Shown here: in pieces, positions 7,005-64,000 of the stretch | Layout of the letters: each line of letters starts with the position of its first letter | How positions within the stretch are numbered: position 1 is the first letter of the stretch | DNA from: Lenzites betulinus | Taxonomy: Eukaryota; Basidiomycota; Agaricomycetes; Polyporales; Polyporaceae | Length of the DNA: 64,000 nt | NCBI GenBank assembly: GCA_022264855.1 | Contig: JABYQU010000013.1 | Location: 672,950 to 736,949, forward strand | Direction: 5' to 3' | The notes under the pieces: model-generated | Told to the model about the DNA's origin: nothing | The model's input: the letters and a program-made list of their open reading frames with translations, nothing else | Databases searched by the model: none | Program-made: the position numbers and the translations under genes

Positions 7005-7210
7005 GGTTTCTCTATCACGGATACCCACCTGCGGCATAGAAGTATCCGCTGTATACCTATCCTGAACATACGAGTACATATTACCGGAAACATATCTCAT
7101 ATCATAGCTGTACACTAAGCATAGCAATACATCGAGGGGACAGGCCACAAAGCATATCGACGTGAAGGAAACCCGGAGCGGATAGAATGGGGTATGGGCA
7201 GAGTAACGGC

Positions 7211-29302: not shown

Positions 29303-29575
29303 GGTACACTATAGATGGCAGATTGGTGTACTCGCATCCGTTTGCACGCGCCCTGGGACAGTTCTCTCTTGTTGTCAGTCGATCGATCTTACACCTTCGT
29401 ACGTTATAACAGTTCATGCTACCGGCTGTAATACATTGTATACTATTCGCGAATGACGGAAAACGGCCATTCGGCCTTGTTGTGCTACAGCTAGAAATAC
29501 GTATGAGGATCCGGATGGCATCCGTCTATGATGCGTATTGGTGTTCTCAGGCGATACGAGAGGTAACCACCTCTA

Positions 29576-30912
29576 TCAATCATCCAATAGCTTTCTAACG
29601 TCCATGAGCACCTCTTCAAGCCCCGGTAGGTATTGTTCCTCCCCCCGAGAACGAGTCTTGAAGTCTTCGTAACACGCGGTCACCCGTTCCATAATAAATT
29701 CGAGGGGCGCCGTGAACTCCAGAGGTGTGCGGGGCCATAGAGTCTCATTGACCGCACATGGTTTGCCCGAGGCGAGATACAACGCATGCCGCACCATTCG
29801 CCAAAACGTCGCCCAGCTGATAGCGATGATTTGGAATGTCAGTAGCGTCCTGATAGGGACTGTTAAGCACGCAAGCCATGAGGCGGGTACGCACTTCCAG
29901 CCAGCATCCTTCTCGACGACGTCCTGCACGATCGCAACCCACTCCCGCTGCCACTCTGCTTCAGGTGCGCCACCCTGAGAGAGCAGCTCCTGGACGTCTT
30001 CGAGTGCGTGCTCGACTTCCTGGACTTTTGCGCACATAGACGCGTAAAGCGAAGGAAGGTTCACGGCGTTGCACCAGTTGTGGTTGATAGATATGCAGTC
30101 AGTGAGGTTCTCCACTTGATGGTACCACCCGCTCGGCCTGGGGTAGGAGCAGATCAGCAGCGTGGCCTGCGAGATGGTGGAAGGAGGGCAGAGGGCACCC
30201 ACACGAATATCGTCTCTCCCGAGTTCTGCTCGACGACAATAGGGCGCGCCTGCGCGAAGGAAGGGTATGTCTGGGGATCGACATCCCGCACGTCGAACGC
30301 GGTCTCTGCGTGCTCCTCGCCCCCTCGGCGAAAGAGGAGCGGCGTCTGCTCGGGAGGGAAGAGCCACCATCGCTTGCGCCCGCAAACGTTCGTCGACCAC
30401 GAGTACGAGGTGTAGACGTCGCGATGCAGCGGCGTGAATGTCCCTGAGGCCCCGACATAGACGAAGCGGAAGTCATCTTCCGTGTGCGCCGAGTAATACG
30501 CGTTCATCCAGTCATCGCGGAAGACGTCCGGGGTGGTGTAGACTTCGGCGTGAGGCGAAGTGGGGGAGGGGCTGGTAGCAAGCGTGCGCGCTAGATGCCA
30601 GTCTTTGACGTAGAGAGACTGGCCCTGCCCTGTTTCCCATAAGGCGACGACGTCCCGGAAGAGCATCTGCTCGCGCCGCTGGTCGCTGAACTCGCGTGTG
30701 GCGCAATCTGCCACTGTGACTTCAAGGTGGCCATAGTCACTTGCCAGGTGTTCCCAGTTGATTTTCTCATCATTTGACCTCCAATAGGCGTATGCATGCC
30801 ATGATGTTATGAGGGATGGGCCGAAGATGACAGGCAAATTGGGCAGCAGGTAGTGCTCAAAGAACTCTTTGTAGTGAGAAGGGGTGTCGAGTCTATCACA
30901 TCTGACCTCCAT
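29576..30912 (-). CDS. JmjC-domain hydroxylase, JMJD4-like
   Basis: Fe(II)/2-oxoglutarate oxygenase of the JMJD4 type; the human member hydroxylates a lysine of translation termination factor eRF1. Exon 1 starts MEVRCDRLDTPSHYKEFF and contains LPVIFGPSLITSWHA, the iron ligands HRD in TFTPLHRDVYTSYSW, and GRKRWWLFPPEQ. Splicing through GTGGGT...CCCCAG restores FVPSGWYHQVENL, and the distal iron-binding His lies in ISINHNWCNAVNL. A further intron restores DAGWNWATFWRMVRHALYL near the C-terminus. The reading frame looks intact. It is convergent with SPT6 and divergent from the small membrane protein at 31224. Confidence 0.9.
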
Positions 30913-31223
30913 TCAGCCTGATGGATAATTATGCATCAAAAGAGGCGATTATGGAAAACGTAAGGAGGCTGACCGTATGGCAATGGAAGTGATGGCTGCT
31001 GGCGTTGAATGGTAGAGGGCAATAGCTTCTGATCCTAACACAGACAAACAGCACGATGCCCGGGTTTGGGCGGGTGACGTCAGGGCTGCGTTGTGGCTGC
31101 ACGCTTGCAAGGCGCGGGCCCGAGGACCACGTCTCCGCAGCTTCTCCCCTTCCCGCATCCTTCTGCGCTCCTTTTCGTGCACATCTTACCCGTATATATA
31201 TTCTCCTTCTTCACCTCCGCATC

Positions 31224-32011
31224 ATGTCCTCAGAGATAGAGCTCGAAGACTTGTCGAAGCGTACTCAAATCAAATCTGACCACACAAATGAGACGCCACC
31301 AGACACCAACTACCCTGTGGTGGAGGACGGTGTGGTCTTTGCTTGGGCATGGGCATCAGCAATAATGTGCGTTATAAACTTAACTTTCAATACACTCTGG
31401 CTCACACACGCGCTGTAGCCTCTTGGTACTCTCCATACCCCTGATACTATCCCCGAGGCTGCTCCTGTTCTTGTCAGAAACGAGCACCGAGCGGAGGGCC
31501 GCACTCACACCACTAGAGTCGTTCATGGCTCTTCACGCTGGTATCTTGCTCTCTGCCATTGCCCTCGCGCTTATATTCAATGTACGTGCTCAGCCCTGCT
31601 GTCGATCTGCTGCAAACTAAGTCGTTCAACAGATACCGTCAGACCCCTTACATATCACAGCGAAACACGAGGCACCTGGGCATCCCCTCTTGGCCCCTCT
31701 ATCTTACTCATGTGTTCTCATCTCGTTCATTTCATACAACACCCAGTCCGTAGGGCCCCTGGGGTTCCTTGTATGTCTCGGCTCGGGCACCATTGGATTA
31801 TGGGGACTGTGGGCGGTGAGTAGCTTGCGTGCTAAAGAACAGGCGTCATAGGAACTCACGCGAAGTGTAGATCCTCTTTTCTGGCTCTGCATATGTCTCC
31901 CGCAAAACTGGGGCAGACAAGCGAACGTCGCGGTTTCTGTTCGGGAACAAAGCAGCAGCATCTGTGCAGAAGAAGCAATGGAAGAGAGAGCAGGAGCACA
32001 AGAGTTCGTGA
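31224..32011 (+). CDS. Small multi-spanning membrane protein, unknown function
   Basis: Four exons can be joined: 31224-31366, one from 31420, one from about 31632 to 31815, and 31871-32011. The start is [15 protein letters not shown]. Hydrophobic segments include [40 protein letters not shown] and [20 protein letters not shown], so three or four membrane spans are expected. The C-terminus is basic and soluble ([17 protein letters not shown]). A TATATATA stretch at 31193-31200 lies just upstream of the start. I recognise the general pattern of an uncharacterised fungal membrane protein but can assign no function. Confidence 0.75.
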
Positions 32012-32327
32012 AGTGCTCTTCGGTAGGGATGTCCAAACCGTTGTACGTTGTATACAGTACACTAAATATCGTGCGGGTGTAAGTCTCATGAGGCCCTGCG
32101 AGTTTGCGTACGTTTGACGGTGCTGAACGAGGACAATATGCATGAATCCCGGCTAGGAACGCATGAAGTACGGGAACGCGTCTCGCAGGTTAGGGTTTAG
32201 CGTGATCGCCGATTGAGTTCGCCGATCGAGGGATCATCTGCTCGTCCCGACTCGTTCCGTCGCCTATGGGCGCCAATGGCTTTCCGTCCACTCATCCAAG
32301 TTTAGGCGGGCTCGTCTTCAGTGAATC

Positions 32328-33732
32328 ATGGCTACTACGCCGCAAACTATCGACGAACTTATCGACAAACTATCCTTGGACTCGGACCCCGTACGCGAGG
32401 CAATTGCGTCCGAACTTGGCGGTACGCGCTCTTCTGCTTCTAGCAGCCATCCGCAAGTAAACCTTATGCGATCATTTAACTTTCATTGAACCTCCGGCAT
32501 TCTCCAACGGCTATCAATTGTATGTCAAGGAAGCTCTGCAAAGCATCTACGGGGAGGATGCCCTCACAATATGGAAACCTAGCCAGCCAGGGAGCCGGCC
32601 CTCTACCCCAGATGCCGGAACTATCCACTTTGAGGTCACTTTGAGGTGAAGGTCTCGTACGACTACGTGGCTCTTCCAATGTACTTATTGGGTTGCAGTA
32701 TAGACATACCCGCAGGGCACAGCGCGGACGAATCCTCCCATCCAATTAACATCCTCGTCACTTTGCCCCCCACATACCCATCCACTTCCGCGCCCCAGCT
32801 ACAGCTTCTCTCGCGATACATCGGACCCTATGGCGTAGACGCGCCGCTCTTCGGCACCGTCCTTCGAACGTTCATCTCCCGTGGCGGTGTCGAGTGGACG
32901 CCAGATTACGTCTGCGTCTTCGATGGGCTGGAATGGGTGAAGGAGCGCTGCGCGGAGTGGCTCAGCGAACGGATGAGCGAAAATAAGGTCGGCGAGTTGA
33001 TGCGGGAGGACGAGCGAGGACGGACGGGAAATCCGCGCGAGACCCAGAATGGCGATGAAGAGGACGAGGGGAAGCCCAGTTCGCGAGCAGGGCGCGAACC
33101 TCCCCCCGTGCCAGCAGAGATGCCTCCTGGGATCACCATTACGGAGGCTGAAGCCATCCATGACCGCAAGAGTGTCTTCATTGGGAGAGCATGTCCTATC
33201 ACCGACCCATCGCAGGTATGGCGTTATGTTTATGTTTCGTTCGTAAGGTTGCTAATTAGGATGCGTTGCGTTTCAGGTACCACTCATCCTCGATCACATT
33301 ATGTCGGACCGGCGTATATCCCGTGCAGCCCATCCCATCATCAACGCCTGGCGATGCAAAGTAGGCAACATCCTGCATCAAGGTGAGTCTGCATATGTCC
33401 GAATATCTGTAACTCGCTGAACGCTTTCTGTCAGACAATGACGACGATGGTGAGACCGCAGCGGGAGGACGCCTTGCGCACTTGCTACAAATACTGGTGA
33501 TTACCGCACTGTCTGCGTATGATCTATGCACTAAACACCTTTGGTTCAGGAGGTAGATAACGTCCTCGTTATCGTGACACGGTATTTCGGAGGGATCCAT
33601 TTAGGACCCGACAGGTTCAAACACATCAATCAGGCCGCGCGAAACGCCCTCGAGCTCGGCGGTTTCCTTGACGCGCCAGATGAAGTCCACAGAGGAAGGA
33701 AGTCTGGCAAGGCGCGCGGTCATGCGAAGTGA
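32328..33732 (+). CDS. YIH1: IMPACT/YIH1 homologue (RWD plus Impact domain)
   Basis: Cytoplasmic regulator that competes with the Gcn2 kinase for Gcn1, dampening the amino-acid starvation response. ATG 32328 gives MATTPQTIDELIDKLSLDS. The RWD domain follows (NGYQLYVKEALQSIYGEDAL; INILVTLPPTYPSTSAPQLQ). A charged Pro-rich linker leads to the Impact (UPF0029) domain: IHDRKSVFIGRACPI, then VPLILDHIMSDRRISRAAHP, then DNVLVIVTRYFGGIHLGPDR. It ends in a basic tail (RGRKSGKARGHAK) and TGA at 33730. Five or six short introns keep the frame open. Gene order and lengths are as expected for the family. Confidence 0.93.
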
Positions 33733-47589: not shown

Positions 47590-49413
47590 ATGTCACACGC
47601 TGTCAACAACATACGCTCTGCTTATCACAACCTCATATCAAATGTTACCACTGGTCTTCGAACTTACCATGGAGATGCAGCACGTCTTGGTGAACTGCGT
47701 TCGCAGGTCATGTCTCTTTGGGAAGCAGCGTCTGTCGTAAGCCTTTATAGCAAATTATGTACATTTTCTATCATGCACTGATAGGGATTTGACATAGCAT
47801 AGAACCTCAATCCCTGTTGTCGAGTTCACAGTTCTGGAAACGAGCCTATCGGACATGCTCACTGCAATTGCAACCGCGACCGCAACCACCTCTGCCTCCT
47901 CCCCCTCCTCCTCCTCCTCCAACGCCATCCCTCCCACTGTATCTGAACGGGTCAGATCTGGAAAGCGGGGGCGCCCTCGGGTTGAAATAGACCCCTCATT
48001 TCTTGAAGTCGCACTAGATTTGCGTGGGACAACAGAACTAGGCAAGGTGTTCGGCTGCCATCCCCGTACTGTCCGGCGGAGGGCCCTCGAGAAAGGCATT
48101 GTGGAACCCTGTCCTCCAGTGTGTGCCCCACATGTGGCACCAGATGGTACTACCTCGTACATCTACACGTCCTCATCACGACCGGTATCCACCCTGTCCG
48201 ACACCGAGCTTGATGAAGCCATCGCACGCATCCTCGAAGTATTTCCTACGTTCGGTCGTAAAATGATCCGAGGCCATCTCAAGAGCCAGGGCCACAACGT
48301 GCCCAATGCTCGCATCAAGGCCTCATACATCCGCGTTAATGGGCTTCCTCCCTCCTTCGGTACACGTCGCCACATCGTCCGCCGCACATATTATGTTCCG
48401 GGCCCTCTCTCTCTTGTTCATCATGATGGACAGCATGGTATGTCATCAACTGCCTATCGTGTGACTGCTGATGCGAGCACACATACCACAGGCCTCATCC
48501 ACTGGAAACTAGTCATTCATTGTTTCGTTGATGGCTATTCAAGATATGTCCTCGGTATTCGTGCCCATAACAATAACCGGTCGGCAACCGTCTTGGAGCT
48601 CTTCTTAGAGTGCGTTGAGAAGCATGGAACCCCCAGCCGTGTGCGTGGAGATCATGGCACAGAGAACCTGGGTGTCGCTGGCTGGATGGAGGAGCACCGG
48701 GGCATCGAGCGTGGCTCATACATCTGGGGCCGGTGCGTTATACTCAATTCTGTCATCTTGGTCTCATCTCACAGGTGTTAAGGAGTGTTCATAACACATG
48801 AATTGAACGTTTGTGGGTCGACGTGACTAGCGGATTCGGCAGCAAGTGGAAGTTGTTCTTCATGGACCTCGAACGTCACCACAGCCTAGATACAACAATC
48901 CCTGCTCATATTTGGCTCCTGCACCATCTCTTCGTCCATCACATCAACCAAGATGCTCTCGAGTGGGCTGAAGCATGGAACTCCCATCGCATCTCCCTCC
49001 CTGGTGGTCAAAGTCGGAGCCCTCGCGACATGTTCATCTTCGGTGTCCTTGAGCACGGTGCACAGGGTGTAGAAGAGCGTCTCCGACGTGAGCCTTCCCC
49101 AGAAAGCCTCCAGGAGTTTGGAATAGACTGGGGTGTATTGGAGGACCGTGACGTGATGGCGCACTTCCAGGAGCATAACGGAGAAGTCCACGGTACCTCA
49201 TCTGGACACGCATTTGCCCCAGGAACCCGGCCAGAGAGACTGTCTGAGGTTATTTGTAATGAGCCGAACTGCCCCTTTACTCTTGAACAGATTCAACGCC
49301 TCGATGCTATCCTTCTGGGTTTGGTAGACACTAACTCTCGTGACATGAATGTACGGCAGACTGTATGGTCATCGGCGCTGCAAATATGTTTAAGTAATCA
49401 ATTGGATATATGA
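47590..49413 (+). pseudogene. Integrase-core (DDE, rve-like) gene with a premature stop
   Basis: Fungal integrase-core family protein. ATG 47590 gives MSHAVNNIRSAYHNLISNV; after one intron comes a Ser/Thr-rich stretch and an HTH-like region (ELGKVFGCHPRTVRRRALEK). The core follows: first Asp in LVHHDGQHG (48425), intron 48438-48491, then LIHWKLVIHCFVDGYSRYVL, second Asp in RGDHGTENL (48650). After intron 48733-48782 the frame reads SVHNT-stop-IERLW: TGA at 48799-48801 stands where the family has Arg (CGA). The catalytic Glu (48805) and the rest of the domain stay open to TGA 49411. One C-to-T change at a CpG explains the break. Confidence 0.8.
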
Positions 49414-50174
49414 CAGGGACCTGTTTTAGTTTGTTCAACAACATCCATTACTTAATGTGATAAAATCATCATCACCCCCATTTATAATTTGCCATTAAGA
49501 TATGTTTTGATCATAAGACTGAGTAATCAAACGTGTTGAACATATTCATGCCGTATTCCTTCAAGTGGAAAGCTTTGCTAAACCCGTTTGCTCACACGGC
49601 GGGATCAACGCTACTGCTCACACGAGTAGATAAACCCAGGGGTTTATCACATCAGTTTATCCACACATGGGTTTATCCCTGTGACCTCAACAAACGATCA
49701 ACCCTATCCCTCAAGCTCAAGTTCTGCATGCAGCCCAAATAAGCTGTTCGGCATACAATTGGAAGAACCCCTTGACGGGATGAATTTAGATCGTACATGC
49801 CTACTACCTACCCACAGAACCTCCGAAGCATGCATGCACTCACCGACGCCAAAGCATGCGTCGGGGTCGGGATCACTCTCCCTGCGCGCAAGCATCGCAC
49901 CGCATGCAAACTGGCGCGCGCGCGCAGAGGAGTACATCCCAGACGTCGTGGTTGGGATTGTGGCGGGGGATCATGCGAGGTGTTGTCGGCAGGGGTCGGG
50001 TCGTGCGGGAGTGCCTTGTGGCAGGTTATCCGTGGGGCTGCCGCAAGTTCTCGCCGTTGTTGCCTCGCATCGGGGACGTCCGCTGCGAGGCGTCTGCGGC
50101 CAGCGGCGTTGATCCTGAGTGTGCAAGGTTCGAGTTGTGGCGCCGCCGTCGAGTCCTGTGGCCTAGCGTGCTGA
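49414..50174. other. AT-rich spacer before the KDZ gene
   Basis: No gene recognised. The first 300 bp are AT-rich. It contains the repeated GTTTATC motif annotated at 49629-49679 and then high-GC sequence that is probably the 3' flank of the KDZ gene. Confidence 0.4.
49629..49679. repeat. Clustered GGGTTTATC motifs, partly palindromic
   Basis: GATAAACCC-AG-GGGTTTATC (49629-49648) is a perfect 9-bp inverted repeat. Further copies AGTTTATCC (about 49654) and GGGTTTATCC (about 49669) follow. It lies about 500 bp beyond the 3' end of the KDZ gene, where subterminal repeats of a transposon could be expected. Confidence 0.55.
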
Positions 50175-53100
50175 TCACATCCGCCACGCTTGAAGAATAT
50201 CCTCGAACTCCACTATGTTGTCATCGCAGAGCTGGGCGAGGTAGGGACGGATGCTCTAAAGGACGTCACTAATGGCTCAGCTGTTGAAAACATGTAAAAG
50301 TTCCTCACCCTTGTGTGATCTAACCTGTCCGGTGGCGCGTCGGCCCTACGAGCGGAGTCGTAGGCCTTGTCGCAGGCGGCCGCCATTCGTGTCCACATCG
50401 CCGCTGTCTTTTTGGCATATGCCCTTTCGCCGCCCTTGCGCGAGTCGCCAGCGGCACTCCAAAGGGTGGCGTATGCTTTATAGCCCATTGACGTCCGACG
50501 AAACTCTGCGCAAAGACGATTCACTGCCTCGTCCGCCCGATCCTTGTCCGCCTTCGCTCGAAACCATTGAACTATGTCCACTGACCACAATTCCAGACCA
50601 ATGAGTTACTACACAGATGATTGCAAAATTGGGCTTACCGCTCGTCGAGGTCAGGTCTGGTGCTTGTACCCCAGAACGGGTGCTCGTGGACGGTGCCTTG
50701 TCGTAAACGTTCCAGATCCACGAACCCGAGCGCTGGCTATCGTTTAGGGTTCGCGGGGCCGCCATGTTCGCTATCGCGAGGTCCGAGTCCAGACGTATCG
50801 GTTGTAGTCGGCTGCCTGGACTGTTGTCCGCCAGCCCATCGTAATCTGATGCGCGAAGCGCCTTGATGCGTTCAAAGTTATGGTTGTACCTTGTAGCAAG
50901 GACACGGGCGCGCGCGTCTGCGCGCTGGATTTCTTCTTGGGCCACAGTGTTTGCTCGACCCCCGCGGGCGTGCTTGCGCTTGTGCTCGATGTGAGCTGCG
51001 CGGTGCTTCACGGCCAGTCGTATTGCATCCAGCTGATCGAATGCGAGGCCAGTGCGGATGGTGCATTCGTACTCGGCTAGGGTGTGAAGGCCGTAGTCAG
51101 CTCGGTCCTCATGATCGTAGTCAGATGGTAGCCCCAGGCCATCAGGACAAGGGTCGTATTGAGGGTCCTCGGTGTCGGCCTCGTCGAAGCTGAAGTCTTG
51201 AAGATCGTCGTATTCATCAGCGCAGGTTGCCATGTGCTTGCGCTGGGCTTTCTGCCATTGTGTTAGCTTCTTGTGGAAAGTAGCCCAGGTCACCCGGTGG
51301 TCGAAACCATCTTCAACCGGGCTCTGATTGGCCGCGCCTTGATCTCGCAGGTAGCGCAGATGCAAGCTAACATGACGAGCATCAGTCATGTTACGCACAG
51401 CCGGGTTACTTCATACTCACAGCTCCTGGTCAAGGTCTATAGCATGTTTGATGAACATCGCTGCAGAGTTGTTCAGCTGTGCGCCGGCCGCGTGCTGATG
51501 CGTCCGGCGCTGGCTCTTCTTCCGACCCAGTATTTCTTGTAGCGCACTCTCGACGTTTGGCACTGCAATAGAGGCGGATCAGTAGTTGGATGAGTCAAGG
51601 TGCTCCTGCACACGTACGCTCCGCGCGATTCCACATGTACACGCTCGTGGCATATGCTTTGGTCTTCGCGCGGAACGTTTGGGGTGTCGGAGCCTGGTCA
51701 TCCACGTCGACCAATAGCCACTGGCGCACTGTGGCTGCGCCTGCCAAACCCGTCAAGCTGGCAAAGTATCGCGTGGTGCGGCGCTGGGCGGCATAAGCCT
51801 CTTCTAGCTTGCGCGCAAGGAATCGCGCTGTAGAATTGGATCAGCGAATCACGATAGTACACTCGGCGACATGGGGGGAGGACGTACACATGTTCCAGGT
51901 CTTGCGCCAATTCCAATAATTAAACAACGAGTTCAGCGCGTCGTGTCTCGAACCAGCCGTCATTTCGCGTGTCGACAAACCGGCGATGTTCATTTCGGCC
52001 CAAGGCGTCTCCACGCCTTCGCCATGTGCGAGGCCGAAACCACGCGCATAACAGAACGCGTAAACGATTTGACACATTTCTTGATGTGCGTGCATGTGTA
52101 GCTTGGGTAGGAGCATTTTCAGCTCCTTCACTATCGGGACCAAATCTGGATGGGACTTAGCGAATCTTTCCACGATATGGCATATGTAGCTGCACACTAC
52201 GTCGTAAGACGCTCCTCGCTCCAGCAATCGCTCAGTGCCCGTGAGGGCGGCCGCAAGGGCATAGTCGGCCTGTCCCCACCTACGGATCCAATTAGAATGT
52301 GACGGGGTGGGTAATGATGGTTCTTTCAAAAACAGCTTACGTCTCAGTGGTATACAAGTCTACTGTGGCGCCCGGTCGGAAGTGCAAATGGTCGCACATG
52401 AAGGCGAGGATGCCGCTGTTCTCGACGTAGCGGAATTTTCCCGTACGTTGTGACCGGGCGACCTTGAACCCAGCACAGGTAATGCCCTAATTGAATGGTG
52501 CAGGTCAATGATCCCATGCATCATTAGCATCAGCAAGTTCGCACTCACTACGTCCTCCCCCACATGTGGTGCTTGCTTTCCTTTGCCATTGAACTTTTGG
52601 TTCAGAAAGTCGCGCATGATATCTTCAGGGACGAAGAACCCTTCGCCAGTTGTCAGAGCTACGTCGAATTCGTCGGCCGGCTTGGTCTTCCTCTGCAAAC
52701 TGTAGTTCCCGTCCGCGCATAGAACCAAGCGGTAAAGATATCTGATCATACCAATATCTGTGAATTCCTGCTATGAAACTGATTGACGTTCATCGCGCAC
52801 CTGAGATTTTCTTCCGTGTCGTCCCAACCCTCTGGAAGATTGAAATCTGGAATCGGGCACGTGAGGCATGGCACCGTAATGCTCGCTGGGTCCCGTCCGG
52901 GTATGACAATGCCATGCCGTCGTCCAGATCGCTTGTCTGTCGTTAGATATCGATGAATTCGCGAGGCCAACAAGAAGTCGCGATATCTGTCCTGCGGCGG
53001 TGTCAGGCGTCTGCTACACTGGGAAATATGAAGCGCACGCACCTTGGTTGGCTCCAGCGGGTCGTCATTGGGGCTCAACTGCTCTACGATGCGCACGAAG

Positions 53101-54121
53101 TCTTGAGTGCTGCGCTTGCTCACATCGAAGTCGAGATGGAATCTTTCCAGCACTTGGCAGGTGAATGCAGTTTCGATCCGGTCCAAGGTCGCCGGAAAGA
53201 GGTCCGCGCGGATCAGTTGCGAGAGTCGGGATCGTCGGCCAGGACAATGGCAATAGTGGAGCTGAGTGCAATGGACACCGTTGTCGTGAATCACTACGAA
53301 CTTTATGGGAGGTTCGGCGGTGGGGATGTTTGGGCATGCATCACCATGATGCCCTAGGTACAACACAAATCCGAACTCAGCTAGATCTCGACGTTGAAAG
53401 TACTCGCCGTTCCAAATGGATAACCAATGGAATGGTAGGTTGCGATGTAGGCGGACGGCGCAGGTTGTGCACGTGGCCTCCCGTCCCGAACACTCGCGAC
53501 ATCTTGCATCGCACGGACGCGTACAGCCGGGGGTAGCGCAGCATCCGGGCATGTCGACGTCGTGCTCTTTCCACAGCATGTCCGCGAGTATGTCGTCGAA
53601 GTGGGGGAGGAAGGACTTGATGCGAGCCGAGGGTGTGTTCTGTAAAAACGTCAGAACATCTGTGGCTATTGATCGCCCGGTGTGCGTACTTTGGCTTTGG
53701 AGGTGTGCTCGCCTTTGCTCTTGCTGTCTCCGTTCTCCGAGGACGCTCCGGTTGGATGCTTAGCGGGGAGAAAATCGGTATCGTCGAGCGCACCGATGCG
53801 CTCGAATTCGCGCCACGCGGCGTCAACGTCGGCGGGGTTCTCGTCGAGGTTCTCGTGCTGATCAGCGGCATGGCTGGGGCCTGCAGCGGGAGGGTTGCCC
53901 ATGGGCGTGGGCTCACTGGTGCTGGTGGTCGGATCGAGAAGGTCGTCCTCGCGCCGACGCTTGAGTGGTGGCCCCTGTGCGGAATACTCCAGGTGGCGTT
54001 GGTAGAGATTGAGAGAGCCCCCTGAGCCCACAGCGTATTCGGCCTGCCGGGCTCGGGCCTTTGTCTGCCCCGAAGAGCGCGCCACACTGCGGGGCACTGT
54101 TGTTCGTTTCTTGAAAACCAT
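50175..54121 (-). CDS. KDZ-family transposase with CxC2-like cysteine domain, apparently intact
   Basis: Kyakuja-Dileera-Zisupton transposase, about 1,100 residues. ATG 54121 gives MVFKKRTTVPRSVARSSGQ and a disordered segment. After one intron the Cys domain appears (MPGCCATPGCTRPCDARC, CSGREATCTTCAVRLHRNLP). Then FHLDFDVSKRSTQDFVRIVE, RYLYRLVLCADGNYSLQRKT, GQADYALAAAL, GASYDVVCSYICHIVERF, LPKLHMHAHQEMCQIVYAF and HGEGVETPWAEMNIAGLSTR, which are the conserved core with its acidic residues, and RHDALNSLFNYWNWRKTWNM. The C-terminal part is helical and charged and ends LAQLCDDNIVEFEDILQAW with TGA at 50175-50177. Eleven exons join in phase with GT-AG introns and no internal stop was found. Terminal repeats of the element were not located. 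Confidence 0.9.
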
Positions 54122-54352
54122 GTCCGCAATGTGGAGGCCGGCCGGCGTAGATCAGTGTAGGTGTAACCAACGGGGTAGGCGTGGCGCAAGGACGTTGAGG
54201 TGAAACGTGGACAGGAGTATCTGCAGTGACGATTGGGCTGGGGCGCAAGTCAGCTGCATTCACTGGCAGTCTCTCGACCCCGAGAATCAGATTCCTCACC
54301 GGTATGTCCGTGTCGGCGTCCCGGAGTGCCATTGGCAGCGGCGGTTTCAGCC

Positions 54353-54790
54353 TCAATTCAAAATCACCAAGGCGTTCATCGGCCGTGGCGCGCAGTTCAC
54401 GCTGTACACTATCGGGTCGCCGCGGATGAAGGACGTTACGGTGGAGTCTGAGGTGTGATTGGTCCGGCTGCTTTCATGGTTGTGTGCGGAGGAGGACGTA
54501 CTGATGTTTCTCGGCAACCGTCGGCCGTGAACCACGGGCCGAGTGAAATGCGGTGAAGATCTCATCGTCGCTGCATCCTGTGGGTCCCGCCAGGTACCAT
54601 ATGTGGATCCACAGTGGTTGCGAGATTTTAGTTTGACACGCGAGATGCCTGTCGCTACACACTGTCTCATCTGATTATAGGCTAATGTTTCGCGCATATC
54701 GTGCCGTCGTACGTCTCGCATCGGCGGGCGTAGATCTTCGTCAAAATCTTCACCATTCACTACAAGCGAGATTGAATCGTAACCAACTTG
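54353..54790 (-). CDS. Possible hypothetical exon(s) between KDZ and the next gene
   Basis: An open minus-strand stretch reads YDSISLVVNGEDFDEDLRP, MRETLAYNQMRQC and ends FIRGDPIVYSVNCAPRPMNA...LVILN with a stop at 54353. An overlapping frame (SDDEIFTAFHSARGS) competes for the middle part, so a spliced small gene is possible. It starts just behind an AG acceptor following the stop of the neighbouring gene and might be an alternative 3' exon of that gene. No family recognised. Confidence 0.25.
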   Translation of the reverse strand, partial: QVGYDSISLVVNGEDFDEDLRPPMRDVRRHDMRETLAYNQMRQCVATGISRVKLKSRNHCGSTYGTWRDPQDAATMRSSPHFTRPVVHGRRLPRNISTSSSAHNHESSRTNHTSDSTVTSFIRGDPIVYSVNCAPRPMNALVILN

Positions 54791-54796
54791 CCTAGC

Positions 54797-56262
54797 TCAA
54801 TCTGAGAGCACGATCACGTCAGAAGGTGAAGTTGTTTTCCCCTTGCCTTTCCCCCTCCCCTTACCATGGCGGCGGCTACTCCCAGCGTGGTTGGAACCTG
54901 ATCCCTCACCTTGCCGACCGGTTGAGACGGGTGCGGAGACCGGGTTTGCCGAGGAAAGGCTGCGCGCATCGGGCTGAGCGTGCAAGTCGGACTTGCGCCG
55001 GCGCTTCGCCGCGGCGTGGAGCAGCGGCGACGCAGATCGCTTGCGAACCCGGGAGGGCGTCGCGGCGGAGGCCTGGAGTTGCGGGGACGCAGAACGCTTG
55101 CGAACTCCGGCGGACTGGTCGAAGCGAGTCGTGAAGGATTTGTCGTCCTCAGTGAAAGAGAAAGGTAGGAGGTCAAGCAGCGACCCGATGGTCGGCGAGC
55201 CCGGCATCGACTGAGGCTTGGGCGGATCTTCTGCCGGGCGTTGAGCACGGCGACTAGCATATGGAGGGGCTATGGTGGGTACACGTGGGCGATCGTCGAC
55301 TTGCCCACGCGGGGCCAAAAGGAGGGCTTTGTAGTGATCCAGATTCGGGGTCTTCGAGACGTAGAGGTCACGGTAGAGCACTCGCTCTCCCGGGGCAAGG
55401 AATACGACTTGGTGGGCCTTCGGATATATTGCCCAGTCCTGAGCAGTGTGGTGCCACATGGTGTAGACAGGGGTCTGAGGATCGAGGGGGTCGATTTGAA
55501 GGGCGGTGTGAATCGCCGGCTGCTTGAAGCGGAATTCCACAACCTCGTCGCGTGGTGTACCTTTAGCATCGATGACCAAAGGGTTATGGCGTCCCTGTAT
55601 GAGCTGGAGTGAGTCGCTGAACGTGGAATGGAACTGTGCGCACTTACAGGAAGGTAGACGTAAACGATAACGTCGCAGATGGGGTTGTGCGGGCGTCCTA
55701 CGTTTCCTCGGTGCGAGGATGCCACGCTGCCTGCCGAAGAGCTGCGGGACGAAACCCGAGAGGTGTGCCCGGAGGAAGACGCCGGGGATGAGAGCGGGAG
55801 GTATCCGTCCCGAGCGGAACGTCCAGAAAGCCGCGCGGTGAACGCGAGCCCGTCGTAATTATCCTCGACCTCGCCACGGAGGTTGTCCCTCATCAGGATG
55901 GCCTCGTCGCGCAGGTCGCGCGATCCGTTGACGGGCGGGTCCAAGCCGGCGATGCGAATCCAGATTTGCAGGCGAGTGAGAAGGTAGCTATCGGCACGAG
56001 CGGCTTTGTGTGGTGGGCGCATTTCACTTGGGTATTGAGGCACTACAACCAAGGTAAGTATGCTCATAAGCAAGGGCTTGGAGGTGGATGCGACTTACGA
56101 GTTCAAAACCATTCCCGCGTTGACGAACTCGCTGCCTCCGTAGGATTTAACCAGTCCGTGGCGCGATCCATAGGGGCAAGGATGATAATGAGTGCGCCAG
56201 GATATGCCGCAAGAGCGCAGCTCTTCGTCCACGAGAGTTCTCACACGATCGTCGATTTTCAT
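54797..56262 (-). CDS. KDZ/TET-linked protein with basic Ser/Lys/Arg tail, unknown function
   Basis: Three exons (56262-56099, 56026-55648, 55603-54797) sum to 1,350 nt, giving 449 residues. The start is MKIDDRVRTLVDEELRSCG; an in-frame upstream start at 56346 is possible. The N-terminal two thirds look globular: VKSYGGSEFVNAGMVLN, LLTRLQIWIRIAGLDPPVNG, ICDVIVYVYLP, IQGRHNPLVIDAKGTP, VYTMWHHTAQDWAIYPKAHQ, FLAPGERVLYRDLYVSKTP. The C-terminal 150 residues are disordered, with two copies of VRKRSASP, then AAKRRRKS and GKGRGKGKGKTT, which suggests nuclear localisation and nucleic-acid contact. It lies on the same strand between the KDZ transposase and the TET/JBP gene. I recognise no domain. Confidence 0.7.
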
Positions 56263-56890
56263 CGGTGGAAGGTGATTGAGGGAGCGAGGAGGTCGCGGCC
56301 GCGATCTGACCTGTCTTATATGAAATCGGCGTATACAGGACTCCATTTGATGGCATACATGTTTCGAATTACTGGAAACCGGCTAATGATTACACAACCT
56401 TGGTAATGAGCACTTTTCATCAGAATCTTGTCCTCCTCTAGATATAAGGTGTTGACAACATTACTTACCCGGTTAACCCATATTGTGCTACATAGTGAGC
56501 ACGACATGTTCAAGTCGTGCTCCAACATGGTCGCCAAACAGAGGGAAGGCTGTAGCAGTTAACGATATGGAGATGGCGTCTGCCTCACAAGAAAGACGCG
56601 CGCGCTCGATCTGCCGCGTGTGATTGGTATATCGCGCAAGGCCTGGCAGGAACGCGCTCAATGGTTGGCAGCTACATACCGACTGGTAACGAGTCAGACT
56701 GTGCGAAGATGCCATGGAGTAGTACGTACGCCACCCACATACTACGTAGCACGGTCACGCCGACGCCATGTCCGAGTAGTACTTTGTAAGCGATGTAGGC
56801 TCGCAGCGCTTCCAAAGCAAATGCCTGCATGGATATACACAATTACCGCGGGCATTTCGGACAATGTATTACAAGGTGGATGTGGATGTA
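56263..56890. other. Intergenic, no gene recognised
   Basis: Holds the promoter of the 449-aa gene and the 3' flank of the 135-aa gene. Open frames here lack splice support. Confidence 0.4.
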
Positions 56891-57423
56891 CTATGAGCTC
56901 GTCGGACGACCTTGGGATACATGCATCGGGGGCCGGCACCAACAGTCGCATGTGCGGCGATGAGAACACAGGGCCTCTTCGGCTTCGATTCGCTTGGCCA
57001 GCTCGAGACGATACAAGGATCCGAAATGGCGCACGAGGTCGAACACCATCTCAAGATCCTTGGCCAGCCTATTTTGGCGATCCACTCCTTTCTTGGTATC
57101 CACACTCAGCTTCTCCAGGTGGGCCTGCAAAAAAGGGGCGAAACCTGGGAGCTGTTAAAAACTCGCTCGCGCACGGTTGGATGAAAGTATACATACTTTC
57201 TGCCCAATCGTCAGCTTGCTGACACCCTTCCACCTTTAGAACTACCACTGGTCCATGAACCTCACCCGCACGCGACAAGGTAACAGAGTGCATGCTGGGA
57301 AGGGAATTGGGAAGGTTATAAGTCAGGGTAATACGATGGGAGGGGTGGTGAGAGTTACGATACTTACTGTCCACATGGAAATGGAACGTCAAGTCTTGGA
57401 GGGTCTGCGGACGTCAATGTCAT
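56891..57423 (-). CDS. Small helical protein in the KDZ-TET block, unknown function
   Basis: Three exons join in phase: 57423-57368, a 98-nt exon of about 57294-57197, and one ending at 56891 (TAG). Total 408 nt, 135 residues. The start is MTLTSADPPRLDVPFPC, then MHSVTLSRAGEVHGPVVVLK. The C-terminal half is strongly helical and charged (AHLEKLSVDTKKGVDRQNRL, DLEMVFDLVRHFG, RLELAKRIEAEEALCS) and may form a coiled coil. It ends with a Cys/His cluster (CSHRRTCDCWC). No family was recognised. Co-orientation with the KDZ and TET genes is the only functional hint. Confidence 0.6.
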
Positions 57424-57921
57424 CGTCTTGCTTGTGCGTTGTACAACGATCGAGATAGATCACACAGCGTATGTAGTGAAAGACGATCAGTGTAGAGCGA
57501 TGGCACGGGACGGGCAGAGGCGCATGAACAAACCTGGCACCGGATGCCTGATCGCGAGGCAGCGGCCAGCGCTAGTGCTAACGGACCTAGTGGACGCTGA
57601 CCTTCTGACCTAGACCGTACGGGCAAGACTTGCGAGGGCATTGGGAGGAGGACTAGCTCCTTATCCAGGGCGCGCGAAATTCGCATGCTGGTCTCACATT
57701 AACCCCATTGTATACGTATACCTGCGGGGTGAATGTATGAGTATGATATTCATTTGGCGCATTTGGGGACGTAGGCCATGCTGGAACAAGTTAGAGAATT
57801 TTGAGCGCATGCTCTTGCTCTACGATCGGGATGAAGTGCGCTGCTGTCAAGATACGCAAGATACGCCACAACCGGGTGACGTTGGAGTCGCTTAGGACGC
57901 GCGCATATACGAGCATACAAG
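57424..57921. other. Intergenic, no gene recognised
   Basis: About 500 bp between the 3' end of the TET/JBP gene and the start of the 135-aa gene. No coding signal or repeat was seen. Confidence 0.4.
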
Positions 57922-59850
57922 CTAAGGGCGCCCCTCGCCACAGAGTTCGCTCCAAAATGACAGCATCTCAATACCCCGCTCCCACCGAGCCCTACCCGCC
58001 GCCTCGGCCTCCTTTGGCCTCATTCGTGGGAGAGATTTGACGGGACGGTGCCCGGATTCCACCCAGCAAAACAAGCCGCCGGCTGAATACTGGGTGAAGG
58101 AGTATCGCCGTTCGTTCGACCCGACATCCGTGTTGGAGTGCGTGATAATTGCAGACGGGATGAGGATGGTAGCGCCTGGGGGGAACTCGATGACCATCCT
58201 CAGTTCCCACAGGATGATGTGGCCTCCTTGTACTGGATTGTACGATCCTGTGGCCGTGATCGCACACATGCCAAATGATAAGTTCATGAAGTCGCGGTGG
58301 GGAACCGAGACTGTGCGGGGACCAAGATTGAAGGTAGCACTCGCGAAAACATTGTTTGGAAAGTTAGGTTGCAGGCTAGAATCTGCATGACAGAGGGCGT
58401 CGAGGGTAGCTCCGTAATACTCATGGAGACGCGGCGCGAACAACTGCATCGCAGCTGTATATAAGTGTGTGAGTCACATAGGGACACTTAACATGACTTT
58501 GACACTCGTCTGCACCCACCGTTGCCAAAGTTTGCCATACGTTTCACGGCAATCTGGGCGCACAGAGCATTCAAAACGTCAAGATTTTGCTTGCTGGTGC
58601 CCGACAAATTTTTGGGTCTCTATGTAAGGGCGAGTTCTCAAGCTATCCCACGTAGCGGAAGGCATGACGAAACTGAAACGTACGGTCTGCCCTCCTCCGT
58701 ACGAGATTCCGGTTGAAGCGCTGATAAAGTCGCCGCGCCGCTCGCAGGGCTTATGCGCCGATGGCTGGTAGGCCTTGCGCGCGTTCTCCATAATGATTTC
58801 CATATCGGCGTTGATACCATTCCAATTCACGTCGCGTGGCTGACCGACCAAGACCGCAATGACTCTCCCTTCTCTGCTGAGGATTGGGCGAGGTGTGCTG
58901 TAGCAATGGTAAGCGCTCATGTATACCATCCAAATCGAGTGGCATACATTCCATCCCAAGCAATGTAGTCGAAGCCTTGTTCGACTAGTTCCTCAGCACT
59001 GTAGACCCGCCCATTCTCGGCTTGTGTTTGAGCTAGCTTGGCTCTGTACGCTGACTTGCACACGGGCACGTCGTCCATATCCAGAGTATACTGAGTAGAG
59101 ATCGGCAGGCTGCCCTTTGTTGAGGTACCGGCGTTGTCGCTTTCCAGGACGCTTCTACTCGCCGGGGTGTCCGGAGTTGCGCCAGTCCAGAGAACCTCGG
59201 CAGCCTCCCGACGCTCTCTCGCGCGCTGCTTAACAGGACGCTTCGATAAGCCGGGGTCCCCGGTGGAGGCTGCCACGGCTCCGCGTGCGCGCCGCCTGCG
59301 GGCCTTCGAGCGCTGCTTGGAGTGGTACGCCTCTTTGTCGTCGGCACTCAGGACTCCGCTGCGCACGTGGCGCTTAACTTCCCCCATCGCATGCTCCATG
59401 GGACTGCATACTCCAGGGGTTGTCTCGTTCACAGGCGTGAATCCTCGGGGCGCGTGCGCGTTCAATGAGCCGCTGTTAAGGGCGCGCGGCGGGAGGTCTC
59501 CAATGGCGCTGAGCAGCGCTTCGTTATCGGAATAGGTTAAGGATTCATGTCCGTGCATGGACATGAATCCTACCCCGATGTTCGAAGGTGCCCGGTGGTC
59601 CTCGTGCGCACTGCCCACCGCAGGCGCCTCTTCGTTTTCGATGGCGCGCGCGGCATCCAAATCGCAAATGGACCTCATATGCTCGACTAGGTCAAAGTCG
59701 CTTGGAGCATGTATTGGCACACCGTGCTCGGCCACCCAAGGCGAAAAGGCTTGGCCGGAGCGCGTCTAAGAGAGGCGTTGAACCATGCGGCCCGGGCGCA
59801 GACTAAGTCAAGAAAATTGTTACCTTCCGAAATCCTGTATCTCCGTACAT
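57922..59850 (-). CDS. TET/JBP-family Fe(II)/2-oxoglutarate DNA-base dioxygenase, apparently intact
   Basis: Family that oxidises 5-methylcytosine or thymine in DNA. Five exons (59850-59824, 59765-58948, 58897-58684, 58619-58520, 58454-57922) total 1,692 nt, giving 563 residues; no start codon exists in the long exon before a 9-residue first exon (MYGDTGFRK). The N-terminal third is disordered with a basic patch (KQRSKARRRRARG). The catalytic part has WDGITPRPILSREGRVIAVL, YGGGQTRPKNL, NLGPRTVSVPHRDFMNLSFG (iron ligands His439 and Asp441), GGHIILWELRMVIEFPPG, ILIPSAIITHSN (distal His492) and RRYSFTQYSAGGLFCWV (2OG-binding Arg502 or 503). All key residues are present. It is downstream of and co-oriented with the KDZ block. 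Substrate is inferred from the family. Confidence 0.88.
59540..59571. repeat. 13-bp inverted repeat inside the TET/JBP coding region
   Basis: AGGATTCATGTCC (59540-59552) and its exact reverse complement (59559-59571) flank a 6-bp spacer within exon 2, encoding FMSMHGHES. It could form a hairpin in the mRNA. Confidence 0.8.
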
Positions 59851-61233
59851 AAGTCCTGTATGTATTCCGTACAAACACTCGTGTCAGCCCTTGAGAATCT
59901 GTTGAGTCTGCAACATGCGCATCATCGTGCCACTGCCTCCGGGTTCCAAGGTCGGATCCACGTTCAGCAGTGGCACGAGTGCGCAGGGACAGACATATAC
60001 ATAAAAAGATCCACTTACCCAAGCAGGGGGCCGTACGGATGAGAGTTAGCAAGTAAGGATACCAGCGTTGATCAAGAACGGAGAGAGAAGGGGGGGCAGC
60101 TTATATTGCGCCTGTAGGGGACGGAGCGCCTTGGTGTGCGACCCTAAATGATGGCAATGTGACTGCCAAACTGTGTGCGAGATCCTTTTCGAAATCGCAT
60201 CGACGCTGCCTGCGCTCGCTGTGCGTAGTGCGAGTTTGTGCGCGCCCGCGAAGGCCCCGCACAAACTGGCTATCTACGTGCCTATGGAACCACCTACTAC
60301 TCTACCAGATCTACATGCCTCGATAAGCTACGACAGACTGCCTCTTCATTGGCGTGAGTGTGGCGGCACTATCTTAAACGGTCAGTTTGTACCTAATGAC
60401 TGAATGACAATGACAGGACAGCCACTGTTGGAAAGTTACCAGATCCTCGGTGCATCGGCGTCTCTATGCTATCAGTGAGCCTCGCGCGAAACGTGAATGT
60501 ATTGGCATAGCTCTTATGTACTGGTTAATGTGACGCTCAGCAGGGTGTGGAAGGTTGGTGGAAGGTTGTGCGGCATCGACGGAATGCAATTAGCTCGAGA
60601 AATGCGTCTGACCGGCATATTCCGTCTCGCCGCGTGGGTCGCCGGATAATGCCGAAGGACTTTGAGTCTGCGCGACTCAGCACCTGCTGCCACGCTTGGC
60701 AAAGGGCACAAACCTCACTGAAATGGCGTCCAAACCGCGCGCCTGACGAGTCGGCCACCGCTTTGTATGCGGACGCCGTCCTTGTGAGTACACGACATCT
60801 GTGGCAAAATCTGACCGAGCGACAAGGACAGGCGGCGAGGATCAAACGGGAACGTCATGCAACATTCCCGTATACCGCTGGTACTAGGGCTGCTGCTATG
60901 GGAAGTGCATAACCTGGGTGGGTTTGGGTAGTACTGGCACCTCGAAAGGGACATAATGACCTATTTATTGTGTACAGTCCGAGCTGCGAAATAGCTCAGA
61001 AGTTATTCGGTGAGTACCGCAAGACCCTGACTGTTTAACCTTGCCGCTAACGCGTGATGAACTCACCTAATCTAGAAATAAAGTGCACAAAACGCCTCAC
61101 AGCGGCCTCGATAGGTATGATAAATCGGTGGATCACCAGACACGCGATTGATCTGATTGCACACAGGCATATAGCTCAGTCTGACCTATCTCGACCCCAA
61201 CATCGATGCCCCCCGCCCCGGGATCTAACTACC
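59851..61233. other. Upstream of TET/JBP; unresolved exon-like stretches on the plus strand
   Basis: Three pieces can be spliced in phase (60284-60353, 60417-60474, 60544-60649) to a 77-aa protein starting MEPPTTLPDLHASIS and ending GIFRLAAWVAG. Overlapping it, ATG 60649 opens MPKDFESARLSTCCHAWQRA up to a GTGAGT donor near 60786. A later stretch (GHNDLFIVYSPSCEIAQKL, about 60950) runs into another GTGAGT, and its acceptor near 61074 leads into the frame of the 61234 gene. These may be 5' exons of that gene or small genes; I could not decide. Confidence 0.3.
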
Positions 61234-62390
61234 ATGGCGCCTTCTACCCCGTCGTCGCATTCCCCCACTCCCCATATCCGAGCCGCGCCCGCAAGCCCCC
61301 TCGTTGAGGGGAACGAAGTCCTGCGGTTCGCGGACCTGCGCCTCGCGGACCTTTGCATCGGCGAGAACGATGGTAGGATGTCCTCCCACGTGGACATCAC
61401 GAACACCGCGTCGGTGTTCAGCCAGCACCACCGGTCTCCCGCGAACCTCCTGAGCCCTGCACACCGAGAGGGTGTCGTCGTTGGGGGGAACAGCGATGCC
61501 GGGCTAGGCAAAGCCCTCCCTGCTGGAGACCCTCAGAACGTGCTTGACCACCCCGGCGCTGCAGTGCCCGCGGCCGCCGACGACGACTCCCACGAGCACG
61601 ACCACGACCTCGTGGCCGCCCACGAGCACGACACCCCCACAAGCACGATGCCGCCGCCGCCGACGCCGATGTCGCTGCCGCCGACGCCGATGCCGCCGCC
61701 GCCGCCGACGCTGACGACGACGACTACGACGACGACGACTACGCCGACGACGACGACGACGACGACGACAAAGGGGTGGCCATGACGCTATGGCATGAGG
61801 GATGGGACCCTGACGTCCTTCCCAACACCCTGGGCCGGTATTACGTCTCATTGAGGGCTCTCCGCGTCGATGGCGAGCTCATCTTGGGCAAGGTAATCAT
61901 GCGTGTTGCTCTATGGTGATGGTGACTGTGAACTTAACAAACTACAGATCTTTTTGCCGCATGACCTGGAGACGGCCAGGCAGCTATCATGGGATGTCTG
62001 GAACGACACCGTCGAGGGTTTGCGAACACAATTCGAGCCCCTGCTCAAATTGTCCCAACGGAACGCGCTCACGAGCCTCGCATACGTTTATGTGTGGTTC
62101 TCGCGTGACCACGGCCCGCACGACAGTCGCGATATCGCTGCTCTCTGGGAGGAGGTTCAAGGCCTTCTCCAGGGTATGGCTACGATGGGGGTCGTTTGCA
62201 ACACGCCTGGCGAGGACCTGTTGTTCAACTTGCAGCTTTGGGCACGGCACAAGATCGAGGTATGGGAATCCATGCGCATGAGTTGCGCTTCCTCTCATTA
62301 CGTTCACAGGATGCTCTACCCGTCTACCTACGAAGTGCGGACGCCCCACGCGCCGGCAGAGAGCCACAACGTTTGTTGTGGGACGCGTAA
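61234..62390 (+). CDS. Asp/Ala-rich hypothetical protein with a probable 1-nt frameshift
   Basis: ATG 61234 gives MAPSTPSSHSPTPHIRAAP, then EVLRFADLRLADLCIGENDG and an acidic/His stretch. In the C run 61634-61638 the frame is lost; six C instead of five would continue into a long Asp/Ala tract (61645-61780) and KGVAMTLWHEGWDPDVLPNT. Intron 61893-61947 leads to IFLPHDLETARQLSWDVWND, ALTSLAYVYVWFSRDHGPHD and WARHKIE; a last intron (62260-62309) leads to DALPVYLRSADAPRAG and TAA at 62388. With one added C the exons sum to 1,053 nt (350 residues). A 32-nt intron (GTGGCC...ACAAG) would also restore the frame but is unusually short. More 5' exons are possible. Family unknown. Confidence 0.5.
61650..61775. 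repeat. Compound trinucleotide repeat (CCG then GAC)
   Basis: Runs of CCG/GCC followed by GAC/ACG triplets. In the frame that joins the downstream exons they encode Ala/Asp and then poly-Asp with two Tyr. The repeat units are multiples of three, so repeat slippage alone would not shift the frame. Confidence 0.8.
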
Positions 62391-62747
62391 TCACTAGCTT
62401 GCATGCGGTCAGCGACCCGCCCACCGAAATTAATGCCCCATGGGACACTTATCGTCCACTGTGAAGCCATAGTGCTTTCATCCCAGACTGAACCACACGG
62501 CCACCCGATCAATGGTCGGTATCGCGGTTGTGTGAACACATGTCGGCTGCCGGCCTGCAGCCGCTCATACAATCGCCCATCATCACGCCATGAGTATGCG
62601 TAAATCGGTGCTAGCATATCTCGATACCACCTGGTGCGAGGGCAGGAACCGGGCGCCGGACGTCAGTTACCGGATGCAAGCCTTTCTCGGAGCAGCATGA
62701 TCATACACCCTCCAAGTCGTCGACCTTTCCAAACGAACTTCTGATGG

Positions 62748-63236
62748 ATGGATGCGGCGGTACGTCTACGTGAATCACCGGAATGTGAAACGTGCGCGAT
62801 ATGCCTAGCATGTGAAACCAAGACTGACGGGGCAGTGTACGTGCCAGCTGCGGCCCGGTTGCCTGTGCCGAAGTGGGACCCACTAGCGCAAACACACATG
62901 ACCAGGGTAAGTTAAGCTGTAGTGATCTGGAATAAGTGTGCTCACGCTGGACCTGTTTGTAACATAGCCAGGTGCGCTCTGTCTTTGTCTCGGACGTGGC
63001 GTCGTGGACTATCGCCGTGCGGCAGAAGTCCGATTCGCCGCCATGATGACAACGAACTTGTTCGAGAGCGCCACCGATCGTGCTCGCCCTGTGCTTGAAG
63101 TAAGATCCGTGCTGAACTACATATCACAGTGATTCGATCGGGTGCTCACCATAATTTCCAGGATGAACGAGACGATCTTATCCCAAAACTACTGATGCAT
63201 ATTCTGTTGACGCAAACCACGGCCGACGTCGGATAA
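62748..63236 (+). CDS. Small Cys4-cluster protein, unknown function
   Basis: Three exons, each a whole number of codons, can be joined: 62748-62906 (159 nt), 62968-63099 (132 nt) and 63162-63236 (75 nt), with GT-AG introns (GTAAGT...CATAG and GTAAGA...TCCAG). The product has 121 residues. The start is MDAAVRLRESPE, then CETCAICLACETK, a C-x2-C-x2-C-x2-C cluster that could bind zinc, then AARLPVPKWDPLAQTHM, GRGVVDYRRAAEVRFAAMM, RPVLEDERDDLIPKLLMHIL and TAA. An in-frame TGA two codons before the ATG supports this start unless another exon lies upstream. No family recognised. It lies in the accessory region after the Asp-rich gene. Confidence 0.5.
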
Positions 63237-63617
63237 TTTACGCCGAGAGATATCTCGATGTGTCCTACAACATGACGCCATGTCGTAGGGACTGCGTAAG
63301 CAGTATCCTCTGCAAAATGGTGAGCCAGTGGTTCAACTGAGATGTGCCCGCCTTGACCGCCGAGCCCAGAACATGGGTGCGTGTGGACTGCCCCTCCGGC
63401 GTTGGGCTGACCGGGCACTAGCGTGTGGTGCGCTCTCGGCAAGAAGTTGCGCAGAACCTCCCGGTATCCAGCAACCACGTAGTCCGAGTGCCGCGCCCTC
63501 AGGCTTCGCCGAACTGTTCCTGCCGCAGCACTCATCCCTCTCCCGTCGAGCATTCGCGCATCCCTGCGACCAGCATCTGGCTCCACCGCCTTGCCATTCA
63601 ACCTCTATACCTCCCCA
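63237..63617. other. Intergenic, no gene recognised
   Basis: Spacer of 381 bp before the last gene. A minus-strand open frame (63146-63601) overlaps the Cys4 gene's last exon and shows no motif. Confidence 0.4.
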
Positions 63618-64000
63618 ATGAGCCCCATGCGCAAAGATACCATCGAGAAGCTAAGCAAACGCGCCGCTTCTTCCGACAAGCACTCAGACCACACTGCCTT
63701 CATCACACCGTCCTCCTCTTCTGGATCCTACTCATCGTCTGAGGATGTCCCCGTCGACGCCGATAGTGCTCAATCCGCCAGCGCCCTGTCGAAGGGCAAA
63801 GGCAAGGCCTCAGCTGTCTCTCTCCCTCGAACGCGTCCTGTGTTCGTCGACAGCTCCGACGAAGAAGGAACGGCAACGAAGCCGAGACCGAAGCCGAAGC
63901 GCAAGCACAAGCACCGGGCTCAGGAACAACAAACTGCCGCATCGACGGGGAGGGCCCGAGTACGGTCAACGGGACGGACGCGCTGGCGAACACGAAGCAT
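63618..64000 (+). CDS. Start of a Ser- and Lys/Arg-rich protein, cut by the window edge
   Basis: ATG 63618 gives MSPMRKDTIEKLSKRAASSD, then Ser-rich sequence (ITPSSSSGSYSSSEDVPVD), KGKGKASAVSLP, FVDSSDEEGTATKPRPKPKR and an Arg-rich stretch, open for 127 codons to the end of the window. The composition is that of a disordered, basic, probably nuclear N-terminus with casein-kinase-like SSDEE sites. No domain is visible yet. Confidence 0.55.
   Translation, partial: MSPMRKDTIEKLSKRAASSDKHSDHTAFITPSSSSGSYSSSEDVPVDADSAQSASALSKGKGKASAVSLPRTRPVFVDSSDEEGTATKPRPKPKRKHKHRAQEQQTAASTGRARVRSTGRTRWRTRS

Follow-up and report, generated by a model that had tools for sequence, protein, structure and literature searches.

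Do four co-oriented genes on the minus strand of the Lenzites betulinus genome, at positions 50175-59850 of a 64,000-nucleotide stretch (the window), form a mobile unit, and with which of the two recognisable enzymes among them, a KDZ transposase and a TET-type dioxygenase, do the two uncharacterised proteins encoded between them (O449 and O135) belong? An original prediction, made from the letters of the window, had proposed a mobile KDZ-TET module with two cargo genes. All four genes are present in the order and orientation it described, and searches of the whole assembly that carries the window (whose own contig is called C14 here, others being C2, C33, C43 and so on) show that the block is the left part, about half, of a recently moved transposon of ~17.5 kb. 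Besides a transposase of its own, this element encodes a TET-type, DNA-demethylase-like enzyme, and no fewer than four uncharacterised proteins travel along with them. Its identity can be stated with high confidence: nearly identical copies occupy different sites, 7 bp of target sequence are duplicated, the ends are CA..TG, one site is also present empty, and the KDZ gene is intact; the fuller reading, of a recently mobile TET-carrying (TET+) KDZ DNA transposon that is Kyakuja-like by its ends and whose genes have the roles proposed below, is considered probable.

Ends, Copies and Insertion Sites

The element begins at window position 49414 (CAGGGACCTGTTTTAG..). Rightward of this base the window matches contig C33 at 100%, the match starting exactly at 49414, and leftward of it C32 matches at 100% as well. 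Contig C14 stops at window position 64000, inside the element, of which 49414-64000 thus lies in the window; the right part is present in C43 and C2, which both diverge at one shared base, the right end (C43:12088). Beyond this base the flank of C43 is also found in C32, at 99.5% identity. Because the flanks are shared with C32, and because TATATGA stands on both sides of the element (49407-49413 and directly after C43:12088) and only once in C32, C14 and C43 represent one insertion and C32 its empty site, probably the other allele. The total length of ~17.49 kb was obtained as ~5,400 bases up to window position 54813 plus 12,088 bases of C43. A second insertion is made up of C33 and C2, with TTTCCGT on both sides, the halves being paired by this duplication only. 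No contig spans the entire element, and each young insertion is known as two contig halves: C14 and C33 end within it, and C43 and C2 both start or stop exactly at the base that corresponds to window position 54814. That contigs end inside the element indicates that the assembly broke at the repeat. A third young right end, with a different flank, was seen from one side in C52 (L052, C52:1-4500); its left end was not found. A single substitution separates C14 from C33 in 14.6 kb, and a single one separates C43 from C2 in 3.1 kb; the remaining differences are indels or stretches read as indel-shifted.

The left end and the reversed right end form an imperfect terminal inverted repeat (49414-49482), identical at 48 of 63 aligned columns (76%; E 1e-9), and the young copies terminate in 5′-CA..TG-3′ (CAGGGACC...GACCTGTG). 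Termini of the same sort are found in two older relatives with similar ends, namely C54, of ~18.0 kb and with no matching target-site duplication, and C43b, a diverged copy of 18,711 bases (C43:1087442-1106152) with its own perfect 7-bp duplication, TGAGGGA. Further relatives lie at C76, judged by similarity to be an allele of C43b, and at C21, C22, C81 and C18, the last four examined as partial sequence. The mobility of the module is therefore borne out by two insertions, each flanked by a perfect 7-bp duplication that differs from the other's, by the empty site and by the duplication of the diverged copy, and the element ends that the original prediction proposed to look for exist, at 49414 and C43:12088. 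Its block covered only about half of the element, missing the ends and two right-hand genes, R0 and R1.

Near the right end lies a 98-nt direct repeat (L049:2737-2936; 89% identical, spacing 102). Adjoining the element on the left is a plus-strand gene (47798-49413), integrase-like by eye, whose last open reading frame has its stop codon within the target-site duplication, so that the insertion took place at the end of that gene. A TET-like match is located ~4 kb from the insertion site, both filled (C43:16163-16603) and empty (C32:794687-795151).

Genes of the Element

The transposase gene (50175-54121, minus strand) has 11 exons and encodes an intact protein of 1127 amino acids with a CxC2 cysteine cluster; it reads without a stop through ten GT-AG introns of 50-62 nt to its end at 50175. 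Pfam searches of single exons identified KDZ (PF18758; 9.6e-29) and CxC2 (5.8e-26).

The TET-type Fe(II)/2-oxoglutarate dioxygenase (57922-59850, minus strand; five exons, 563 amino acids, no stop, start at 59850) possesses the Fe-binding HxD, in agreement with what had been predicted of its catalytic residues. Divergence within its family and the interruption of the genes by introns led to structure being used for the assignment: a model of a relative, P0011 (predicted local distance difference test score, pLDDT, 86.8), has CcTET, NgTET, TET2 and CMD1 as its best-ranked matches. Alignments were made from chosen sets of 29 and 74 relatives out of 120 listed (185 found). Across the 74, the His of HxD is invariant and the Asp is conserved in at least 90%; the element TET has Asn at H+5 and Cys at H+11, and among the same relatives the Cys is invariant and the Asn present in at least 90%. 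Of 30 family members, seven matched Pfam Tet_JBP, the best of them at 9.5e-07; the element TET did so only at 0.087, in its last exon, and a Tet_JBP search of the genome gave nothing at E 0.001. When the TET alignments served as profiles against PDB sequences, capsid and other matches came up in the charged N-terminal part, CcTET not among them, and PDB-sequence searches with single relatives returned nothing. Among other TET-like sequences, protein P0112 of Trametes sanguinea joins a TET-like domain to a Plavaka transposase domain (PF18759), and contig C87 carries two KDZ-TET pairs of equal scores in opposite orientation (4159-8540 and 28173-32553).

O449 (54797-56262, minus strand) has three exons and is 452 amino acids long in C33, with an N-terminal Cys/His motif, a conserved core, a basic tail and a C-terminal DVIVLSD. 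Open exon chains had been predicted for all four genes, which holds for KDZ, TET and O135 and fails for O449 in the window: there, one base is absent at each of two places at ~56.0-56.1 kb where C33, C2 and C43 have it, so that the 449-amino-acid chain needs an unusual acceptor. That chain is partly an assembly artefact. O449 reads cleanly in three exons in C33, C54, C43b, C21, C81 and C22, and the C2 copy has additional single-base gaps close to the contig end. A word-based protein search, which scored the 7992 candidates that shared the most words with the query, yielded seven proteins (a fragment from the element itself, four more from L. betulinus, one from Trametes meyenii and one other fragment). 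All eight full-length O449 proteins share the N-terminal C-x4/5-H ... [FY]E-x-C ... C-x2-H, and all eight have a DVIELSD-type motif at or near the C-terminus, with variants in C21 and T. meyenii. SUMO-interacting motifs have a short hydrophobic core, V/I-V/I-x-L/I, with Ser/Thr or an acidic residue after it, a form that the C-terminus of O449 resembles. A pattern for DVIELSD and a stop codon matches the genome at three places, two of which are in O449; the third occurrence ends an unrelated long open reading frame (C36:329320-330432; L055), which also has VIDISDDE and perhaps encodes a host SUMO-binding protein. A GRF-type zinc finger at the N-terminus of O449 was also considered and found no support. 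Literature listings on SUMO with Zisupton, and on SUMO-interacting motifs with transposases, showed nothing relevant.

O135 (56891-57423, minus strand; three exons, 135 amino acids) is a small Cys/His protein found in the L. betulinus genome only in this element clade, and its exon chain is open here and in two diverged copies. A protein search gave 11 candidates with shared words, none at E 10 or better; a weak match to KxDL (E 0.035 for one exon, 0.1 for the full protein) is not believed. Two genes follow on the plus strand. R0 (approximately 61234-62397) encodes an acidic protein that is conserved in C54, a part of it at 58% identity, and occurs only at loci of the element family. R1 is a large gene whose first part (approximately 63618-64000) lies in the window and which runs on outside it (~C43:8807-11525, both limits judged visually). 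The six exons in its middle are open in three copies: the young one, C54 and C43b. An HMG-like reading of R1, made by eye, received no support from Pfam searches of its exons.

Co-occurrence and Selection

The distribution of these genes was derived from genome matches, with locus merging, KDZ distances and KDZ and TET locus counts done by hand. O449 occurs at 12 loci, 11 of them in the element family; nine have a KDZ match within ~6 kb and two are contig-truncated right halves of young copies. Seen from the transposase, 9 of 40 KDZ loci have O449 within 6 kb. R0 is confined to the family (10/10), as is O135 (7/7, at the young copies, C54, C43b and C76 only), and R1 matches 15 loci, 10 of which belong to it. 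KDZ, O449, R0 and R1 are found together at every locus with coverage to both sides, eight in number: both young insertions, C54, C43b, C21, C22, C81 and C18. No TET match was found near C81 and C18, in a search with one exon's frame that a badly decayed TET could escape. Since O449 and R0 occur at family loci including these two, O449 belongs with the transposase rather than with the dioxygenase, and the joint occurrence at all eight loci places R0 and R1 with the transposase as well. As cargo, then, O449 and O135 do sit with KDZ, and the supposed tie between O449 and the dioxygenase is weakened by C81 and C18; the two genes do not lie mostly away from KDZ or TET genes, and the block is not fixed at one site. 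At C22 (84392-108213), the KDZ gene of the family is spread over ~15 kb with another KDZ-TET pair in between, which suggests a nested insertion; the nearest KDZ match of the genome search belongs to this inner pair, and exons of the locus's own KDZ lie nearer.

Ratios of nonsynonymous to synonymous divergence (dN/dS) against C54 were 0.085 for KDZ, 0.095 for TET, 0.23 for O135 and 0.19 for O449, at dS of 1.0 to 2.4, and between one half and two thirds of all changes were at third codon positions. Against the diverged copies they ranged over 0.07-0.09 for KDZ (C54, C43b), 0.23-0.26 for O135 and 0.14-0.27 for O449; for KDZ of C21 and three TET comparisons dS was saturated, with raw pN/pS of 0.30-0.47. 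The set excludes KDZ of C81 (26 forced exons), KDZ of C76 and TET C22a (one frameshift each) and the window's O449, and includes KDZ of C54 despite one stop, as well as TET C43b (eight exons) and TET C22b (six), the usual number being five. Low dN/dS together with intact frames at dS above 1 argues that TET, O449 and O135 have been under selection in this family.

Proposed Roles and Alternative Explanations

The KDZ enzyme would cut and paste the element, while the TET-like enzyme would oxidise 5-methylcytosine (5mC), with a conventional Asn pocket rather than the Gly/Asp pocket of CcTET, and thereby keep the element expressible under DNA methylation; we lean towards this role of TET as an anti-silencing factor. 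O449, R0 and R1 would serve transposition or anti-silencing as core accessory proteins, and O135 would be an accessory of one TET+ sub-branch. O449 may act as a bridge, contacting DNA by its Cys/His domain and basic tail and SUMOylated proteins of chromatin by its C-terminal motif, a model that we hold to be doubtful. More improbable still is that O449, R0 and R1 form an anti-silencing complex that reads SUMOylated host chromatin by way of the conserved motif at the C-terminus of O449 and brings KDZ, and in TET+ branches the conventional 5mC-oxidising TET, to silenced copies; if true, SUMO recognition and base oxidation would be combined in one DNA transposon.

The element could also be a plain KDZ transposon in which TET, one of many drifting dioxygenase copies, and the uncharacterised genes are passengers. 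Only 12 of ~38 TET-like loci have a KDZ match within 6 kb, and two family members have no TET match, as this would lead one to expect; the low dN/dS and intact frames of TET, O449 and O135 at dS above 1 speak against it, and we regard it as unlikely. A different division of labour, to which we give a little under an even chance, would make O449, R0 and R1 components of the transposition machinery, for binding ends and choosing targets, unrelated to silencing, with TET an add-on of some branches. It accounts for the joint presence of KDZ, O449, R0 and R1 at all eight loci with or without a TET match, but no DNA-binding domain was recognised in O449, or in R0 and R1 searched as single exons, 31 of the 40 KDZ loci show no O449 within 6 kb and seem to manage without it, and at C76:434k O449 and R1 occur with no KDZ or R0 match. 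An immobile cluster of resident genes, kept at a single conserved site, has nothing in its favour; it is refuted by the empty site, the differing duplications and three young right ends, each with a flank of its own, and retains practically no probability.

Several results weigh against the reading of a TET+ KDZ transposon with the gene roles proposed here. The absence of TET matches at C81 and C18 is one, as are the five R1 loci outside the family (C16, C17, C65, C76 and C98) and C76:434k, where O449 stands beside R1. The full-length TET model matched no Pfam family at E 0.1. A Pfam search with O449 gave no meaningful match, its structure model was poor (pLDDT 47) with no fold match, and its putative SUMO binding is suggested by a short motif. 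Depletion of CpG was sought as a sign of methylation, and observed/expected ratios were ~1.0-1.15 for the copies, whether young or old, against 1.05 for the left flank in the window. Mutation driven by methylation has thus left no trace in these counts, which decide neither for nor against escape from silencing.

With a young intact element and its empty site, relatives with and without a TET match and defined ends, the question of TET against silencing becomes directly testable. Accessory families tied to the transposase and not to TET, in turn, point to a little-studied side of the movement or activity of large KDZ elements.

Comparison With Known Systems

The association of KDZ with TET/JBP genes was reportedly first made by Iyer et al. 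in 2014, work that may describe extra KDZ genes; no description of the accessory gene families was found in the literature consulted. Both the combination of KDZ and TET in fungi, to which the original prediction appealed, and the idea of escape from silencing are already published: as far as the accessible text goes, TET+ Kyakuja transposons of Agaricomycetes, including Polyporales, carry KDZ and TET/JBP genes and have 7-bp target-site duplications, 5′-CA..TG-3′ ends and no terminal inverted repeats, other TET+ elements carry a third protein or an alpha-kinase, and the function of transposon-borne TET is described as not experimentally validated (Kojima, 2025; PMC12730594). The L. betulinus element, young and almost complete in its sequence, resembles Kyakuja, as described there, in its KDZ transposase, TET/JBP gene, Agaricomycete host, 7-bp duplications (TATATGA, TTTCCGT, TGAGGGA) and CA..TG ends. 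It differs in its imperfect inverted ends, and is therefore filed only as Kyakuja-like, and in having six genes, arranged as two blocks of opposite orientation, whereas that text mentions no extra genes for Kyakuja.

The dioxygenases differ too. Relative to CcTET of Coprinopsis cinerea (7w5p, 8jkk; 14% identity), the element TET has Asn for Gly331 and Cys for Asp337, an equivalence judged by spacing from HxD without residue alignment to CcTET, and dual activity on 5mC and N6-methyladenine is accordingly not expected of it. By the same spacing it has neither the Gly/Ser at 331 nor the Asp at 337 of AG-type TETs, which in Kyakuja have Gly or Ser and Asp (PMC12730594), and its pocket would be of a different type from those of the published Kyakuja TETs. 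The Asn takes the position of Asn1387 of human TET2, reported to hydrogen-bond N4 of 5mC (PMC11040006). A broader analogy is offered by the plant Vandal (MuDR) elements, described as carrying an anti-silencing protein (PMC12730594), which likewise combine a DNA transposon with a gene directed against its own silencing; in the L. betulinus element, by contrast, base oxidation would be the likely route.
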